From Pusillimonas sp. TS35 (lineage in GTDB: Bacteria > Pseudomonadota > Gammaproteobacteria > Burkholderiales > Burkholderiaceae_B), in the NCBI RefSeq assembly GCF_009857885.1, contig NZ_WWER01000006.1, positions 1 through 64,000 on the forward strand: a stretch of DNA of 64,000 nucleotides, written 5' to 3'. The notes beneath the pieces are model-generated. The model was given only the letters and a program-made list of their open reading frames with translations. It searched no databases and was not told the origin of the DNA. Positions 58,844 through 64,000 of the stretch are shown here, piece after piece (the stretch's first letter is position 1; each line of letters starts with the position of its first letter). The translations under genes and the position numbers were made by a program.

Positions 58844-60778
58844 CTACACCGAGTCGGTGTCGCCAGGCATCAACACTTTGCGAAAGTCGATGCCCATGCT
58901 CCGGCGATCCCCGGATCGCCGTGTGATGCCAACGCGATCAAAGAACTCCAGGTAGTGAATGGCGAGCCCTCGCCCTGTGCCGATCACGTCCCGAAAATCG
59001 GCGGCCGAAAATAGGCCGTCGTCTTTCTCCGCCGCCAGTTCGGCGGCAGTAGCAGCAAGTGATACAAGCGTTTCCTGGAGGCAGAAGCGTGCATCTGTAA
59101 CACGCCAAATCAGCCCGGTGCGGCTTTTCCGGTGCAGAAAGTCCCGTACAGCATGCTCCGCGAGGCCGAGGTGTGCAGCGAGCTGGGCGAGCGAGAGCGA
59201 GTGTGCGCCCAGTGGATACAGTGCATCATGGACACGCTTCCACAGCTGGTCGTCCATTGGATTAGAGGATGCCTCGTGGCTTTGCAGACGCACCACATCG
59301 TTCGATAGAACGATAAGCTTGCGGTTTGCCAAACTGCGCACGAACGCCTGGAATGCTGTGGCCGGCATGCGCGGCGCAAGGCTCGCGTGAAGGCTTGCCA
59401 TCGCTGCGCCCGCCGCTCGCGGGTTTTGTGCGTGGTACGTGCGCAGCGCTGCCATCAGCCGCGCCGTAAGTGCCTCGGCCATGGTACGGCTGATGGTGAC
59501 GGGGCTTTCCTTGCCTAACTGTATGGCGCCTGCGCCACGCCGCACAGCCTCGGCGGCGGCAGGTGTTAGATTCATCGCGCGCACAAACGCCGGCCAGTCG
59601 ACGCCACGCTCGGTCAGCTCGAGCAAGCCTGCAAGCGTTCGCTCGGGGGTGGCGCGTTCGTATGCCTGTAGTTCGGCCATCCTTGTGCCGCTGCGCGGCT
59701 TGCGCGCGGATACATATGGGTTGAGCACCACACCGCCCGCTACCGTAAGGTGTGCATCCTGGCTGCGCACGATAAACCGATCCGCGTGCCACACCGCCAC
59801 GGGCCTCTCCATAAGCAGTCGGGCAAACCCGGTTTGGCCGGGGCCAATCCGCCCCGCACCCGGCAATACGACACGTGCCGGCATACTACCCGCGCCGTGG
59901 TGAAACTGTATTGGTGTCCTGTGTTCAAGCGGGTGCGCGGCACTGGCGAGCACATGTATCCGAACATCAAATCGTTCGGTTAGTTCATGGGCGGCTGGGT
60001 GCACAACCCAATCGCCTCGCTTTATCTGGTCTAGGCCGATGCCTGCCAGGTTTAATGCGCAGCGCTGTCCGCGTGATGCCGTCTCCGTCGCCGCGCCGTG
60101 AATCTGTATGCCTCGCACACGTGCGGCTTCCTGGCGCGGCGACACAAGCAAATGATCGCCGACCGAGACCGCACCCGCCCGGACCGTGCCGGTCACGACA
60201 GTACCACTGCCGGAGATCGTAAAGGCACGATCCACCGGCAGTCGAAAGTAATGATCTTCATCCTTGACGTGCGCCTGTTGCAAGGCAAGGCTTTTCATCC
60301 AGACGATCAGCGCGTCCAAGCCGTGCCCGCACACTGCGGACACGGGAAACACCGGCGCCCCCGCAAGCCCGGTACCCGCCAACACTGCCCTGATTTCAGA
60401 CGCGGCCGCATCCACATGTTTTGCGGGCACCAGGTCTGTCTTGCTGAGCGCGACTGCGCCGCGGCGTACGCCGAGCAGATCCAGAATATTAAGGTGCTCC
60501 AGTGTTTGCGGCATGACGCCGTCGTCGGCTGCCACCACGACCAATGCAGCGTCAATGCCTGAAACCCCCGCAATCATGTTGCGAATGAATCGCTCATGGC
60601 CTGGTACGTCGATAAAGCTGATGCGCAGGCCAGCGCCAAGGTCAAGATGCGCGAAGCCCAGATCAATGGTGATTCCACGCGCGCGCTCTTGAGGGAGACG
60701 ATCGGTATCAAGACCCGTCAGCGCTTTGACGAGGCGTGTTTTCCCATGATCGATATGCCCCGCGGTAGCGATAATCAC
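58844..60778 (-). CDS. selB: selenocysteine-specific translation elongation factor SelB
   Basis: A 644-residue SelB, the GTPase that brings selenocysteyl-tRNA to a UGA codon marked by a SECIS hairpin. G1 AGHIDHGKT (5-13), DVPGHE and SKTD motifs and the EF-Tu-like domains II/III are present, followed by the C-terminal winged-helix part (about 375-644) that binds SECIS RNA. GTG at 60778 with GGGAGG seven bases upstream is the start; the open frame extends 14 codons further. It lies 97 bases after tRNA-Sec on the same strand. Neither selA nor selD is in the window. Its presence means this organism can decode UGA as selenocysteine. Confidence 0.95.
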   Translation of the reverse strand: MIIATAGHIDHGKTRLVKALTGLDTDRLPQERARGITIDLGFAHLDLGAGLRISFIDVPGHERFIRNMIAGVSGIDAALVVVAADDGVMPQTLEHLNILDLLGVRRGAVALSKTDLVPAKHVDAAASEIRAVLAGTGLAGAPVFPVSAVCGHGLDALIVWMKSLALQQAHVKDEDHYFRLPVDRAFTISGSGTVVTGTVRAGAVSVGDHLLVSPRQEAARVRGIQIHGAATETASRGQRCALNLAGIGLDQIKRGDWVVHPAAHELTERFDVRIHVLASAAHPLEHRTPIQFHHGAGSMPARVVLPGAGRIGPGQTGFARLLMERPVAVWHADRFIVRSQDAHLTVAGGVVLNPYVSARKPRSGTRMAELQAYERATPERTLAGLLELTERGVDWPAFVRAMNLTPAAAEAVRRGAGAIQLGKESPVTISRTMAEALTARLMAALRTYHAQNPRAAGAAMASLHASLAPRMPATAFQAFVRSLANRKLIVLSNDVVRLQSHEASSNPMDDQLWKRVHDALYPLGAHSLSLAQLAAHLGLAEHAVRDFLHRKSRTGLIWRVTDARFCLQETLVSLAATAAELAAEKDDGLFSAADFRDVIGTGRGLAIHYLEFFDRVGITRRSGDRRSMGIDFRKVLMPGDTDSV

Positions 60779-60875
60779 GTTCAGGCCTCCCGCCGAACCG
60801 CCTGCGAAACGCCGTGCCAAAGCAAGTGCATCGGCGTCATCATGCCGTCAACGGCCGTGCAGGCCGCTTGATAAG

Positions 60876-60971
60876 TGGCGGAAGAGAATGGGAGTCGAAC
60901 CCACGCAAGATTGCCACGCAACCTCAACCGGATTTGAAGTCCGGCCGTCCCACCGGGAACGTATCCCTTCC
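60876..60971 (-). tRNA. selC: tRNA-Sec (anticodon TCA)
   Basis: On minus, GGAAGGGA (from 60971) pairs with TCTCTTCC before the discriminator G and encoded CCA (60878-60876), giving the eight-pair acceptor stem specific for tRNA-Sec (one G-T pair). The anticodon arm is CCGGA-CTTCAAA-TCCGG with anticodon TCA. A long variable arm follows and GTTCGA marks the T loop. Total length 96 bases with CCA, as for E. coli selC (95). It lies between the flavoprotein gene and selB on the same strand. Confidence 0.97.
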
Positions 60972-60983
60972 TTCATGATCAGC

Positions 60984-61895
60984 CTAGCCAGCCAGGACCC
61001 GGATACGCTGTGCCGCGCGCTGCCCATCGGACACCGCGTCATTCAGCCATCCGGGAAACCCCGACCGCACCTGGCCTATTGCAAACAGGCCAGCAATATT
61101 CGTTTCCATGTCGTCGTTCACGATCAGGAAGCGAGCCCCGTCGCGCTGGGCTTGGACCGGTGCGATATCGCCGTTGGGCACCAGCTCCGCCATTGCGAAC
61201 AACCCCGACGCGGCGACTTCTGTCTCTGCGCCGCGCGCATCCCGTACACGCACGCCCGTCATGCCGGCTTCGTTTCCAACGATCTCCGTGATACTGAGTT
61301 CTGGGTAAAGACTTATTTTGGGATCAGCGTTCACACGTGAAAGGTATTCCTCGCACGCGTCCGCGCCGGCGCGCATGTCCATGATCGACACCGCATCGCA
61401 TTCCTCGGCGAGCAGCAGCGCGCTTTGCAGTGCCCAGTTTCCACCGCCCGCCACCACGACGGCCTCGCCGGTAAACATAGGCGCATCGCAATCGGCGCAG
61501 TGCGATACGCCCCGGCCGTTGAATTCTGCCTCGCCGGGAATGCCCAGCGTCTTCCAGCGTGCGCCGCTGGCAATGACGACGAACCTTGCGGCATACACGC
61601 CAGTTTCTGTCCGCACTTCGAACCCGCCATCAACGGCGTCGATGGCGGCCACCTCGGCAGAGATGCTGTGCACCCCCGCTTTTTTGTTGGCTGTCGCGAG
61701 CATGCCCGCAAACGTCATCCCCGATTCGCCCTGCGCGGCCTCGAAGTTTTCCAGTGTGTTGATGTTCACAACCAAACCGCCGAAGAACTCGGCCTCGATT
61801 GTTGCCACGTCAAGCCCCGCGTTTACCGCGTGGGATGCGCATGTCAGGCCGGCAATGCCTTCGCCCACAACAACCAGATCAAATTTCTGTGCCAT
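60984..61895 (-). CDS. thioredoxin-reductase-like FAD-dependent oxidoreductase
   Basis: A 303-residue flavoprotein of the low-molecular-weight thioredoxin reductase fold. FAD-binding GEGIAG (11-16), redox pair Cys133-Ala-Asp-Cys136 in SHCADCDAP, a second nucleotide-binding GGGNWA (about 150-155) and the C-terminal AIGQVRSGFPG are present. The NADPH-binding motif departs from the usual GGGxSA. It starts at 61895, 12 bases or so separate its stop from selC, and it is divergent from the 62214 and selenoprotein genes. It is the likely electron donor for the selenoprotein, as TrxB is in clostridial glycine/proline reductase operons; this is inferred. Confidence 0.82.
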   Translation of the reverse strand: MAQKFDLVVVGEGIAGLTCASHAVNAGLDVATIEAEFFGGLVVNINTLENFEAAQGESGMTFAGMLATANKKAGVHSISAEVAAIDAVDGGFEVRTETGVYAARFVVIASGARWKTLGIPGEAEFNGRGVSHCADCDAPMFTGEAVVVAGGGNWALQSALLLAEECDAVSIMDMRAGADACEEYLSRVNADPKISLYPELSITEIVGNEAGMTGVRVRDARGAETEVAASGLFAMAELVPNGDIAPVQAQRDGARFLIVNDDMETNIAGLFAIGQVRSGFPGWLNDAVSDGQRAAQRIRVLAG

Positions 61896-62213
61896 ATTTT
61901 TCTTTGAGCAAGGGTGCGCAAAAATCAACGCGTTGGATGCCATGTGTTCATGGAACACAGCGTATTGAGGTTCGATATTTTTTACAAGAACAGATTATCT
62001 CAATGTTCAATTGCATTACTGGCAATTATTCTTCGCTTGGATCAACCGCCGCGGCCTGGCATGTGGATCTGGTACCTGGCGTTTCTTTCGCAGCATATGC
62101 CTGAATCTGCCACCGTTATCGGCTGCATCTCGGTTTATGCGGAAAGCGCAATCGTCAGCGGAAATAGATTGTGCTTGTCGCCTGTATCCCGAGCGTCTAC
62201 GCTTGATTGCACG
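61896..62213. promoter_or_regulatory. divergent control region of the selenoprotein locus
   Basis: 318 bases between the flavoprotein gene (minus) and the gene at 62214 (plus). It is more AT-rich than the flanks and contains a 17-base palindrome, TGTGTTC-ATG-GAACACA, at 61943-61959 with perfect seven-base arms, a candidate operator for coordinated control of both sides. The frame of the plus-strand gene remains open back to 61914 but this part has no family resemblance. Confidence 0.55.
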
Positions 62214-63293
62214 ATGGCTACGCCGCCTCTCTCTACGACCTTCAGCGATCAACGTATGAACACATCTGTCACCAGCGGCATCCTGGAATTTGAGGATGAA
62301 ACCGAGGCAAATGAACGTTTCCAGCAGGAAGGCTGGACGGATGGCCTGCCCATCGTGGCGCCCACCGAAGCGCGCATGTTGCGCTTCGTCCAGGCGATGG
62401 GGCTTGATCCAGACTATGTGATTGGCACCGAACCTGTGCGGCGCCGAAATCTCACTGCTGAAAAGGTGGCAATCGCGGCCGTCATGGCTGGCTGCCTTCC
62501 CGAGTACATGCCGGTGGTGCGTGCCATCGTCGAAGCGATCTGCGAACCGCAGTTTGGCTTGCACGGCTCCACTGCAAGCACGGGTGGCGCGGCACCCATG
62601 ATCATTGTCAATGGCCCGGTCCGCAAACAGATCGGGATGAATGCCACACATAATGCGCTGGCTAATGCCAGCCGTGCAAACGCAACGATAGGGCGTACGC
62701 TCCGGCTGATTCTGCTGAATGTGCTTGGCGGCATACCAGGGCAGCTCGACAGGGCCACATTTGGACACCCCGGCAAGTTCACATTTTGCCTGGCCGAAGA
62801 TGAGGAAGACAGCCGCTGGCTGCCGCTGGCGCAGGAGCGGGGCATTGCTGCGGGCGCATCCGCGGTAACCGTCATGTCTGCTGTGTCTCCACATCAGGTC
62901 ATGAATGAATGGACGCATGATCCGAAGGAGCTGCTGGAAACCTACGCCGCCGCCGTGCGTAGCAATATGCTCGAATACTCGATCTGGGCGGGCAACTATG
63001 CCATGGTGGTGGCCAAGCAGCATCGCGATGTTTTCAACAACGCGGGCTGGACCAAGCAAGACATACGGGAATATATGTTCGAGCGCTGCCGCGTACGACG
63101 AAAGCAGTGGCGCGACGTTGGCAAAGCGTCCATTGCCTCACTCAAGGACGAAGAGAAGGAGTATTGCGCCTTGCGCTCGCCGGACGACTTGCTCGTTGTC
63201 GCCGCGGGTGGGCCGGCGGGCGGCTTCGGGGTGATTGCGCCCCCCTGGATAGGCAGCAGATCTCTGGCGGTCACTGTGCAGGTGTCCGACTGA
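62214..63293 (+). CDS. uncharacterised partner of the selenoprotein (DGLPIV-PT motif)
   Basis: A 359-residue protein of unknown function (345 if it starts at ATG 62256). Near the N-terminus it has EGWTDGLPIVAPTEARM (39-55), followed by an alpha-helical stretch with MAGCLPEYMPVVRAIVEA, a Gly-rich region (GSTASTGGAAPMIIVNGPV) and a C-terminal part with AAGGPAGGFG. No signal peptide or membrane helix. Cysteines at 94, 110, 192, 292 and 318 could be redox-active. It ends 71 bases before the selenoprotein gene, with no terminator between, so the two are probably one operon and one enzyme. I know no function for it. Confidence 0.6.
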   Translation: MATPPLSTTFSDQRMNTSVTSGILEFEDETEANERFQQEGWTDGLPIVAPTEARMLRFVQAMGLDPDYVIGTEPVRRRNLTAEKVAIAAVMAGCLPEYMPVVRAIVEAICEPQFGLHGSTASTGGAAPMIIVNGPVRKQIGMNATHNALANASRANATIGRTLRLILLNVLGGIPGQLDRATFGHPGKFTFCLAEDEEDSRWLPLAQERGIAAGASAVTVMSAVSPHQVMNEWTHDPKELLETYAAAVRSNMLEYSIWAGNYAMVVAKQHRDVFNNAGWTKQDIREYMFERCRVRRKQWRDVGKASIASLKDEEKEYCALRSPDDLLVVAAGGPAGGFGVIAPPWIGSRSLAVTVQVSD

Positions 63294-63364: not shown

Positions 63365-63895
63365 ATGACACTGCGAGTTCTAGACCCACGCGCGTCAGCG
63401 GAAGGGGGTGCGCTTCGCCTGGCCCCGCCGCTCAAGTCGCTTGCGGGTGCGGTGATCGGGATGATTGATAACGGCAAGATCGGCACCGCCCAGTTTTTCA
63501 CGCATCTGGCGGAAATCCTCCGTTCGCAGTACGGGGCGAGGGAGTTCTTGCGCGTGCGTAAACCCGATGCAACCAAACCCGTTCCTCCCGACCTTTTGGC
63601 GAGCATTGCCGGCGCGGACGCTGTCCTCGCCGCCATGGGTGACTGAGGCTCTTGTTCGTCGTGCAGTCTGCATGACGCCATTGAAGCTGAGCGGTTGGGG
63701 ATTCCCGCCGTCGGCATAATGACTGATCGCTTCGTGCGTAGTGCGGAGTTGATGGGTGAGCTTAACGGCTTGCCGGGGTATCCATTTGCTGTTATCGATC
63801 ACCCCATTTCCAACAACAGCGACGAGGTGCTTCGTCAGAAGGCTGAAGTAGCGGCCAAACAGATCGTGTCTCTTCTGACCGAGCGGGCCTCATGA
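63365..63895 (+). CDS. UGSC-type selenoprotein, in-frame TGA read as selenocysteine 94
   Basis: A 176-residue selenoprotein if TGA at 63644-63646 is decoded as selenocysteine. Residues 1-93 contain GAVIGMIDNGKIGTAQFFTHLAEIL; then comes U94-G-S-C97-S-S-C100 followed by HDAIEAERLGIPAVGIMTDRFV to the TGA stop at 63893. The part after the TGA stays open for 82 codons and begins with Gly-Ser-Cys, the signature of UGSC proteins; it also resembles the U-G-T-C-x-x-C...EIER-x-GIP region of clostridial reductase B subunits. A SECIS-like hairpin follows the TGA, and selB and selC are 3-5 kb away. ATG at 63365 has AAAGGAG upstream. Conventional calling would truncate it at 93 residues. Confidence 0.9.
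63644..63676 (+). promoter_or_regulatory. bacterial SECIS-like element
   Basis: Starting at the TGA, the RNA can fold GTCGTGCA (63658-63665) with TGCATGAC (63669-63676), eight pairs with one G-T, leaving the loop GTC. The loop bases G and U are at positions 23 and 24 counted from the U of UGA, as in the E. coli fdhF element, where GGUCU occupies 22-26; here AGUCU occupies the same positions. SelB recognises such a loop. The bulged U of fdhF has no obvious equivalent. Confidence 0.8.
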
Positions 63896-63984
63896 TGCCG
63901 CCGTATGAGTACTCCCTCATCAACGAGGGGATGACGCGCACGGTAACGCTTACGTTGAGAAGAGGTGCTCTGTGGGTGCACTGA
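63892..63984 (+). other. short open frame after the selenoprotein gene, probably not a gene
   Basis: An ATGATG overlapping the selenoprotein stop codon opens a 30-codon frame (MMPPYEYSLINEGMTRTVTL...) ending with TGA at 63982. The overlap would allow coupled translation, but no family resemblance was seen and a better explanation of the last part is the start of a CoA-transferase gene in another frame. Confidence 0.2.
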
Positions 63985-64000
63985 CGCATTTGCGCGTACT
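63972..64000 (+). CDS. probable CaiB/BaiF CoA-transferase, N-terminus only
   Basis: GTG at 63972, preceded by GAGAAGAGG (63957-63965), opens a frame reading MGALTHLRV up to the window edge. This matches the usual N-terminus of family III CoA-transferases (xLxHLRVLDLSR...), of which four complete members occur in the window. Only nine residues are visible, so the call is tentative. If right, a CoA-transferase belongs to the selenoprotein operon. Confidence 0.4.

Follow-up and report, generated by a model that had tools for sequence, protein, structure and literature searches.

According to the accessible part of a 2008 ocean survey, UGSC is among the commonest selenoprotein families, and UGSC proteins fused to a second domain, called 'Unknown_1', were also described there (PMC2398784). 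The majority of such selenoprotein families are still uncharacterised, as stated in the accessible portion of a 2026 review (PMC13188914). With respect to the decoding machinery, bacteria with two tRNA-Sec genes that differ in sequence are already known, and two complete sel operons have been reported for Photobacterium profundum 3TCK (accessible part of PMC5330540).

The window, that is, the whole stretch of 64,000 nucleotides of Pusillimonas sp. TS35 that was analysed, contains on the plus strand a gene (63365..63895) that its frame, the family profiles and its relatives identify as coding for a putative UGSC-family selenoprotein of 176 aa, with Sec at position 94 (Sec94) and TGA 63893-63895 as terminator. 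The sequence AAAGGAG, located 5' of ATG 63365, is a plausible ribosome-binding site. The frame reaches a TGA at 63644-63646 (+) and continues beyond it, without change of frame, for 82 sense codons (GGC TCT TGT TCG TCG TGC...), as had been claimed in an earlier reading of the letters (the sequence-only reading) and as was confirmed on the sequence. That reading also anticipated that standard annotation would give products of 93 and 66 residues, and these are indeed the two ORFs obtained with table 11 (63365-63646, 93 aa; 63695-63895, 66 aa). When the TGA is translated as U, the joined protein contains the stretch GDUGSCSSCSLHDAIEAERLGIP. The U-G-S-C motif and the Cys three residues on, which had been pointed out before, are present as UxxC (Sec94/Cys97), and the U/C column is common to the relatives.

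The joined protein matches PF24696 (UGSC) with an E-value of 4.7e-51 and 173.8 bits (cut-off 25), the match covering positions 1-171 of the 172 in the profile. With NF041046 (UGSC family (seleno)protein) it scores 130.4 bits, above the cut-off of 125; both scores agree with the previous assignment to a known selenoprotein family. When the halves were searched apart, the 93 aa before the TGA and the 82 aa behind it matched PF24696 with E-values of 3e-15 and 4.6e-27, and NF041046 with 1.9e-8 and 7.1e-21, respectively. The PF24696 positions matched by the two halves are consecutive (1-92, then 94-171 of 172). Since both halves match the same families independently, the continuation of the frame past the TGA is not due to chance. 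A profile search of the whole genome of the organism detected a single UGSC locus with one internal TGA. The protein is therefore a newly found member of an already known family, with which it shares length, the UxxC motif, a match to the whole profile and the Sec/Cys exchange described below; the protein itself shows no difference from this family. What this analysis adds to the known UGSC family is a near-universal partner gene in the neighbourhood, also in the Cys-type members, and a second set of selB and tRNA-Sec genes alongside.

Relatives were sought in a one-genome-per-species collection by means of a pattern derived from the peptide GSC[ST]S[CW]S[LV]H, which leaves the Sec codon outside. 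At least 595 stretches matched the pattern, 587 of them encoding a relative; the 80 best of these were retained. All 80 carry TGA at the codon of Sec94, without any further stop inside the match, and their titles span several phyla. Because the 80 relatives were chosen via this peptide, the conservation of residues 95-103 partly reflects the selection, and these relatives are drawn from a Sec-rich branch. The Cys-type relatives come from whole-genome searches only. In the same bacterial family (101 genomes), PF24696 finds a match at E<=0.001 in 12 genomes, over cut-off in 11 of them: TGA-type UGSC genes are present in the organism itself (G000), G395, G415 (three copies) and G454, six genomes (G392, G401, G427, G431, G438 and G449; loci L020-L025) have TGC, coding for Cys, at the position of the TGA, and the remaining two matches are partial (G441) or below cut-off (G382). 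The family search of the joined translation proposed in the sequence-only reading thus yields the PF24696 and NF041046 matches and relatives with either Sec or Cys at position 94, the latter being the six TGC-carrying genes of the same family.

All 81 aligned UGSC sequences (the window protein and the 80 relatives) continue past residue 93, where homologs ending as a rule would have spoken against Sec. Conservation downstream of the TGA, whose lack had been named as a second adverse outcome, is also evident: out of 24 invariant columns, 17 lie at or behind the TGA, and six of these 17 fall outside the searched peptide plus its next residue (the invariant positions beyond the peptide in the 81 sequences are residues 104, 120, 123, 127, 135, 146 and 147). 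A true stop, with the frame behind it being a relic left by decay or the product of an error in sequencing, would agree with the table 11 reading, in which the 93-aa ORF ends at TGA 63644-63646. However, the best relatives from several phyla keep TGA at this very codon and no other stop, which rules out a plain stop codon, most of the invariant columns are found at or behind it, and the codons that follow are constrained beyond the protein level; a true stop is consequently extremely improbable. The comparison thus supports the decoding of the TGA as Sec that had been proposed before, and we regard it as nearly certain that the gene encodes a UGSC-family selenoprotein in which UGA 94 is read as Sec.

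Genome G332, from the same class, has nine UGSC copies (L008, L012-L019), each with an in-frame TGA. Those copies that were read form fusions with the partner domain. Stretches resembling signal peptides open L008, L013 and L014, so that these may be exported selenoproteins.

Directly behind the TGA, comparison of the relatives supports a SECIS-like stem-loop, UCGUGCA-GUC-UGCAUGA (63659..63675, +), with a stem of 7 bp, on the basis of covariation and codon constraint. It corresponds to columns 16-32 of alignment A7, whose columns are counted from the T of the TGA, the stem starting fifteen bases behind that T. A7 comprises 45 of the 99 Sec sequences (among which two genes appear twice, under two locus ids), namely the distinct ones together with L006, L011, L027 and L028; 13 divergent rows, L026 and repeats were omitted. 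In these 45 distinct sequences all 315 cells of the stem are paired (315/315), two of the seven pairs are changed on both sides (G-C to A-U; C-G to G-C), and the other five are invariant. None of 500 shuffles reached the observed values for cells paired, cells changed on both sides or covariation score; the observed count of pairs with changes on both sides was reached by 42 of the 500. When the register of the stem was slid along the alignment, pairing reached at most 55.2%.

The codons forming the stem-loop are also restricted. Ser101 is encoded by AGT in 81/81 sequences, a codon used for 9% of the 2041 serines encoded by the UGSC genes and their partner genes; Ser99 is encoded only by TCG or TCA (81/81), its third base pairing with the third base of His103 in 81/81, and Leu102 only by CTG or TTG (81/81). 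Since Ser96 and Ser98 use both TCN and AGY codons, the searched peptide is taken not to fix codons. Given its composition, the stretch in the window has an unremarkable folding energy (z -1.16, 0.09 and 0.41), so that the evidence for the stem-loop is comparative. The stem is absent from the minimum-energy folds of all seven Cys-type sequences, L020 having a different hairpin close by. Likewise, 13 divergent Sec sequences (L007, L008, L009, L012-L019, L031 and L032), which include the fused ones, have no such stem in the same register; in several of them it is replaced by a GC-rich hairpin whose loop is GGUC.

Upstream of the UGSC gene and on the same strand, the window contains a gene for a protein of 345 aa (62256..63293, +), here called the partner, which is recurrent next to UGSC. 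Neither this protein matches any Pfam or NCBIfam family, nor do its relatives at a meaningful level. The partner lies beside UGSC or is fused to it in 26/26 whole-genome loci, Sec and Cys types alike; these are what remains of 28 distinct loci once L029, which is partial, and L030, which has an E-value of 7.9e-4 and is below cut-off, are set aside; the latter presumably resembles FtsZ. Among the 80 named loci of the best relatives, 76 have a partner homolog, which in 75 is located upstream of UGSC on the same strand, with a gap of less than 250 bases in 70 and of about 1 kb in five; in L034 it lies some 2.5 kb downstream, in the opposite orientation. Three of the four loci without a partner (L046, L058 and L076) have little or no upstream contig, and in the fourth, L100, it is absent from the 2.2 kb searched upstream of UGSC. 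Fusions of UGSC and partner in one frame were found among the plus-strand loci read (L008, L009, L013, L014 and L018), and we infer that the 'Unknown_1' domain of the ocean survey is the partner domain.

The C-terminal tail of the partner varies. In alignment A6, which contains the window protein and those of 67 of the 76 loci (L034, being on the other strand, and eight same-strand loci were omitted), 51 of the 68 aligned proteins, the window's own not being among these 51, terminate in CxxC (for example, GACVDC). In the six Cys-type genomes the tail has the form CxxxxC, and in the window and its betaproteobacterial kin it carries no cysteine. By sequence, no meaningful solved relative of either UGSC or the partner was found at E<=1. 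The best Foldseek matches of the partner were class I fumarate hydratases and folds of the cyanuric-acid-hydrolase type, with E-values of 1e-4 to 1e-2; since their TM values were mostly 0.2-0.3, these fold matches were set aside. Taken together, it is very probable that the UGSC selenoprotein is read by means of a SelB bound to the stem-loop and that UGSC and the partner constitute a two-gene unit.

The resemblance to the Sec/Cys region of reductase B subunits, noticed in the sequence-only reading, stands as remote homology, backed by profile and profile-profile matches. Like the B subunits of glycine and proline reductases (GrdB/PrdB; TIGR01917, TIGR01918, TIGR04483 and PF07355), UGSC proteins carry UxxC and, behind it, a segment that closes with E..GIP, and the Sec columns align. 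However, the window protein matches only the surroundings of Sec (TIGR01917 positions 335-399 of 431), far under all cut-offs, and the UGSC partner has no meaningful match to an NCBIfam model. TIGR01917 (glycine reductase selenoprotein B) matched eight of 15 diverse UGSC proteins at E<=10 (best 2.4e-6) and 28 of a closer set of 81 at E<=1 (best 5.8e-4), the E-value for the window protein alone being 0.0093. The scores of the window protein (14.9 bits) and of the best member (26.7 bits) miss the family cut-off of 602.2.

Among the genomes to which the 80 loci belong, 25 were searched for GRDB-like genes, and in 22 of them PF07355 (GRDB) was over cut-off. The GRDB-like genes (L115-L144) reach up to eight matches per genome. 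When such loci were read past the match, 22 of 23 showed an in-frame TGA, mostly in UPVC or UGIC (for instance, LVPVUPVCHQSVGL...GIPT), and one, L126, a Cys. In a search of 185 genomes of the class of the window organism, GRDB gave two matches at E<=0.001 and none over cut-off. The hhalign comparison of 104 UGSC with 23 GRDB-like sequences resulted in an E-value of 1.6e-5 and a probability of 79%, with the Sec columns aligned, versus 0.09 or worse for the controls (five column shuffles and one reversal) and 0.088 to 0.34 for three unrelated pairs. With seven motif columns masked the values were 4.3e-4 and 34%, and starting from six Cys-type UGSC sequences alone, 2.5e-6 and 89%. These alignments indicate that the Sec domain of UGSC is remotely homologous to that of subunit B of the glycine/proline reductases.

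The structure predicted for UGSC from 81 sequences (pLDDT 90.0, pTM 0.85) shows an alternation of strands and helices in which Sec94 opens the helix following the third strand. The fold search gave weak matches, with TM values of at most 0.54 among the 50 listed of 1266; those 50 include flavodoxin-like domains, PurE and GTPases. A thioredoxin-type protein, that is, one with a thioredoxin-like fold, is suggested by a passage in the accessible part of the ocean survey (PMC2398784), by the UxxC motif and by the presence of a thioredoxin-reductase-like gene nearby. However, this interpretation appears unlikely, given that the predicted model alternates strand and helix with Sec at a helix start, that none of the 50 listed matches out of 1266, all of them weak, is titled thioredoxin, and that the profile kinship points towards GrdB/PrdB. 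The predicted model is therefore read as a flavodoxin-like domain related to GrdB, of which family UGSC is not a member, and UGSC may work like GrdB.

Immediately downstream, a gene for a CaiB/BaiF-type CoA-transferase starts at 63972..64000 (+) and runs past the end of the window (L002 1973-3208). Its best model is a succinate-glutarate CoA-transferase (492.1 bits, below the cut-off of 750). Among the 18 loci having a relative of this CoA-transferase, 13 have it at 1 kb or less from the UGSC-partner pair, 4.8 being expected under uniform placement; nine of these 13 are on the same strand. A CoA-transferase is also located directly 3' in the Cys-type loci L020, L022 and L023. Between both genes of the window, a frame of 30 codons (MMPPYEYSLINEGMTRTVTLTLRRGALWVH, window 63892-63984) overlaps the UGSC stop and ends just within the start of the CoA-transferase; it is possibly non-coding.

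On the minus strand, the window codes for a thioredoxin-reductase-like flavoprotein with a CADC motif (60984..61958, -; TRX_reduct 190 bits, below the cut-off of 343.45), a possible electron donor. Such a gene is present in 6/80 loci, and within 1 kb in one (1.3 expected). Five of these six loci have a partner without the CxxC tail, and the sixth is L034, whose partner is located elsewhere; the co-occurrence of thioredoxin reductase and tailless partner may be due to shared descent. Two other downstream genes were discarded as linked genes: a Bug-type transporter protein, found within 1 kb in 8/25 loci as against 7.7 expected by chance, and a thiamine-diphosphate enzyme, which recurs in 1/80 loci.

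By analogy with the glycine and proline reductases, UGSC and its partner could form one enzyme resembling the substrate-handling selenoprotein B. The selenol of the UxxC motif would attack a carboxylate substrate or its CoA ester, the latter provided by the linked CoA-transferase, and expel a leaving group, Cys97 would resolve the product, and electrons would be returned by a dithiol, the C-terminal CxxC of the partner. Where the partner tail is missing, as in the window, the thioredoxin-reductase-like protein would return the electrons. This reductive chemistry of the UGSC-partner enzyme is put forward tentatively, at somewhat less than even confidence.

The absence of selA and selD from the genome had been mentioned as an argument that would weigh against Sec. 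Both genes are present (selA 593.5 bits, selD 435.5 bits), and selB and tRNA-Sec genes lie in the window itself: tRNA-Sec2 (60880..60971, -; 75.3 bits), one of two in the genome, and SelB2 (58844..60820, -; about 385.7-385.9 bits), whose coordinates are those of the ORF, the true start being probably further in. Besides this set 2, a set 1 on contig C19 includes a formate dehydrogenase-N alpha gene with an in-frame TGA (1494.6 bits), selA (the only selA match), selB1 and tRNA-Sec1. The formate dehydrogenase gene occupies L161 8441-11614 in this cluster. SelB1 (398.7 bits) and SelB2 are the two SelB proteins over cut-off in the genome, and tRNA-Sec1 (C19:329725-329816, 82.3 bits) is over the gathering score, as is the tRNA-Sec of the window. 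In the Rfam scan, tRNA-Sec was the only family over gathering thresholds.

The two tRNA-Sec genes have 69 of 96 bases in common; tRNA-Sec2 is 88% identical to that of L034, 82% to that of L035 and 72% to tRNA-Sec1. Cut at fixed places of the alignment, SelB1 and SelB2 show identities of 57, 40 and 25% in their first, middle and C-terminal parts, respectively, versus 59, 49 and 50% within the set-2 type (window and Sheuella) and 72, 66 and 54% within the set-1 type (own and G392). The C-terminal part of SelB is the one that binds the SECIS. The SECIS loops read for formate dehydrogenase (own, G392 and G438) are AGGUCU, versus AGUYU for UGSC. Compared with the two-operon genomes in the accessible part of PMC5330540, the second set consists here of selB and tRNA-Sec, with selA not adjacent; moreover, it adjoins a single gene for a selenoprotein, and its SelB falls into a clade made up of SelB rows from Sec-UGSC genomes. 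Titles and abstracts retrieved on a second or duplicated selB contained none on a UGSC-linked set, in a search that left subscription journals mostly outside coverage.

In the SelB tree, the protein of the window is placed in a set-2 clade (support 100/99) whose 16 rows come from 15 genomes, each of which has Sec-UGSC; an earlier tree built on 36 rows is in agreement. The later tree takes 35 of the 43 SelB places of the family survey, the other eight (G378, G389, G407, G410, G419, G429, G445 and G452) belonging to genomes without a UGSC match, and both trees omit the SelB fragments of L018 and L031 and two duplicates. A SelB of the set-2 type is present in 15 of the 16 Sec-UGSC genomes that are betaproteobacterial or closest to that group (own, G395, G415, G454 and those of L034, L036-L045 and L047, the last one titled gammaproteobacterium MAG); in the sixteenth, G495 (L036), none of this type was found at E<=1e-70. 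In the family survey SelB is present in 41/101 genomes: in the four that carry Sec-UGSC it is of the set-2 type, and Sec-UGSC is missing from the remaining 37. Three of these 37 (G392, G427 and G438) contain Cys-UGSC, with SelB of set 1 only. Outside the betaproteobacteria, single SelB proteins of other branches accompany Sec-UGSC.

In L202 (G415:C1:2669000-2683000), two UGSC copies about 3.4 kb apart, one of them in a frame of 630 aa, are located beside a SelB of the set-2 clade, G415 having one SelB at E<=1e-70. The two SelB proteins of G494 (L212, L230) both belong to this clade; formate dehydrogenase-N was not detected in that genome.

The decoding of UGA 94 as Sec would require the stem-loop directly behind it to be bound by a SelB carrying Sec-tRNA-Sec, and in the organism itself this would be performed by the neighbouring SelB2 and tRNA-Sec2. 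Set 2 would be kept apart from set 1 by the different SECIS loops, selA and selD being common to both. As SelB1 and SelB2 are only 25% identical in their SECIS-binding part, each would insert Sec in its own mRNA only. On the strength of co-occurrence, we lean slightly towards SelB2 and tRNA-Sec2 being a dedicated decoder of UGSC. An explanation that we rank close to, but below, even confidence is that set 2 lacks a dedicated role: its two genes, selB2 and tRNA-Sec2, could have arrived with a UGSC cassette and be redundant, or the SelB tree could mirror descent. In its favour, UGSC is present in one of four genomes of the own genus and SelB2 adjoins UGSC here. A SelB is found in the UGSC flank in 5/80 named loci, a further point against a dedicated decoder. 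Most genomes with the set-2 type have a single SelB, which must then read all their selenoproteins, so that a split would exist at most in genomes with both types.

There are three such genomes (G000, G454 and G497), all with Sec-UGSC and a formate dehydrogenase-N gene with an in-frame TGA. The retention of both SelB types in the three of them, whose SelB1 proteins belong to two separate branches, argues against a redundant set 2, as do G392 and G438, which possess a Sec formate dehydrogenase and a set-1 SelB and yet have Cys-UGSC. At E<=1e-150, no formate dehydrogenase-N turned up in G395, G415, G470, G494, G495 and G496, several of which are draft genomes, and the formate dehydrogenase match of G471 misses the Sec site. 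In favour of a non-dedicated set 2, no tRNA-Sec was found near the set-2 SelB of G454 and G497, that is, in two of these three genomes. More generally, tRNA-Sec was detected beside the set-2-type SelB in 5/11 loci scanned, and in Sheuella neither in the 16.5 kb around UGSC nor in the 9 kb containing the set-2 SelB. Since no tRNA-Sec lies near the set-2 SelB of Sheuella or G497, two tRNA-Sec genes are shown for the own genome only. The complete picture, in which SelB1/tRNA-Sec1 would serve formate dehydrogenase and SelB2/tRNA-Sec2 would serve UGSC as two separate UGA decoders, and UGSC and its partner would constitute a two-part selenoenzyme related to glycine reductase, is offered as a working proposal that is somewhat less likely than not as a whole.

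The pairing with an unnamed partner, the kinship with GrdB and the second decoding set are what raises this locus above a routine selenoprotein finding. The partner, the linked CoA-transferase and the kinship with glycine/proline reductases make UGSC a testable enzyme. If the two-decoder proposal is true, SelB-SECIS pairs without cross-talk would show that one stop codon can be recoded per gene within one cell, and these natural SelB/SECIS pairs would be tools for selenoprotein production.
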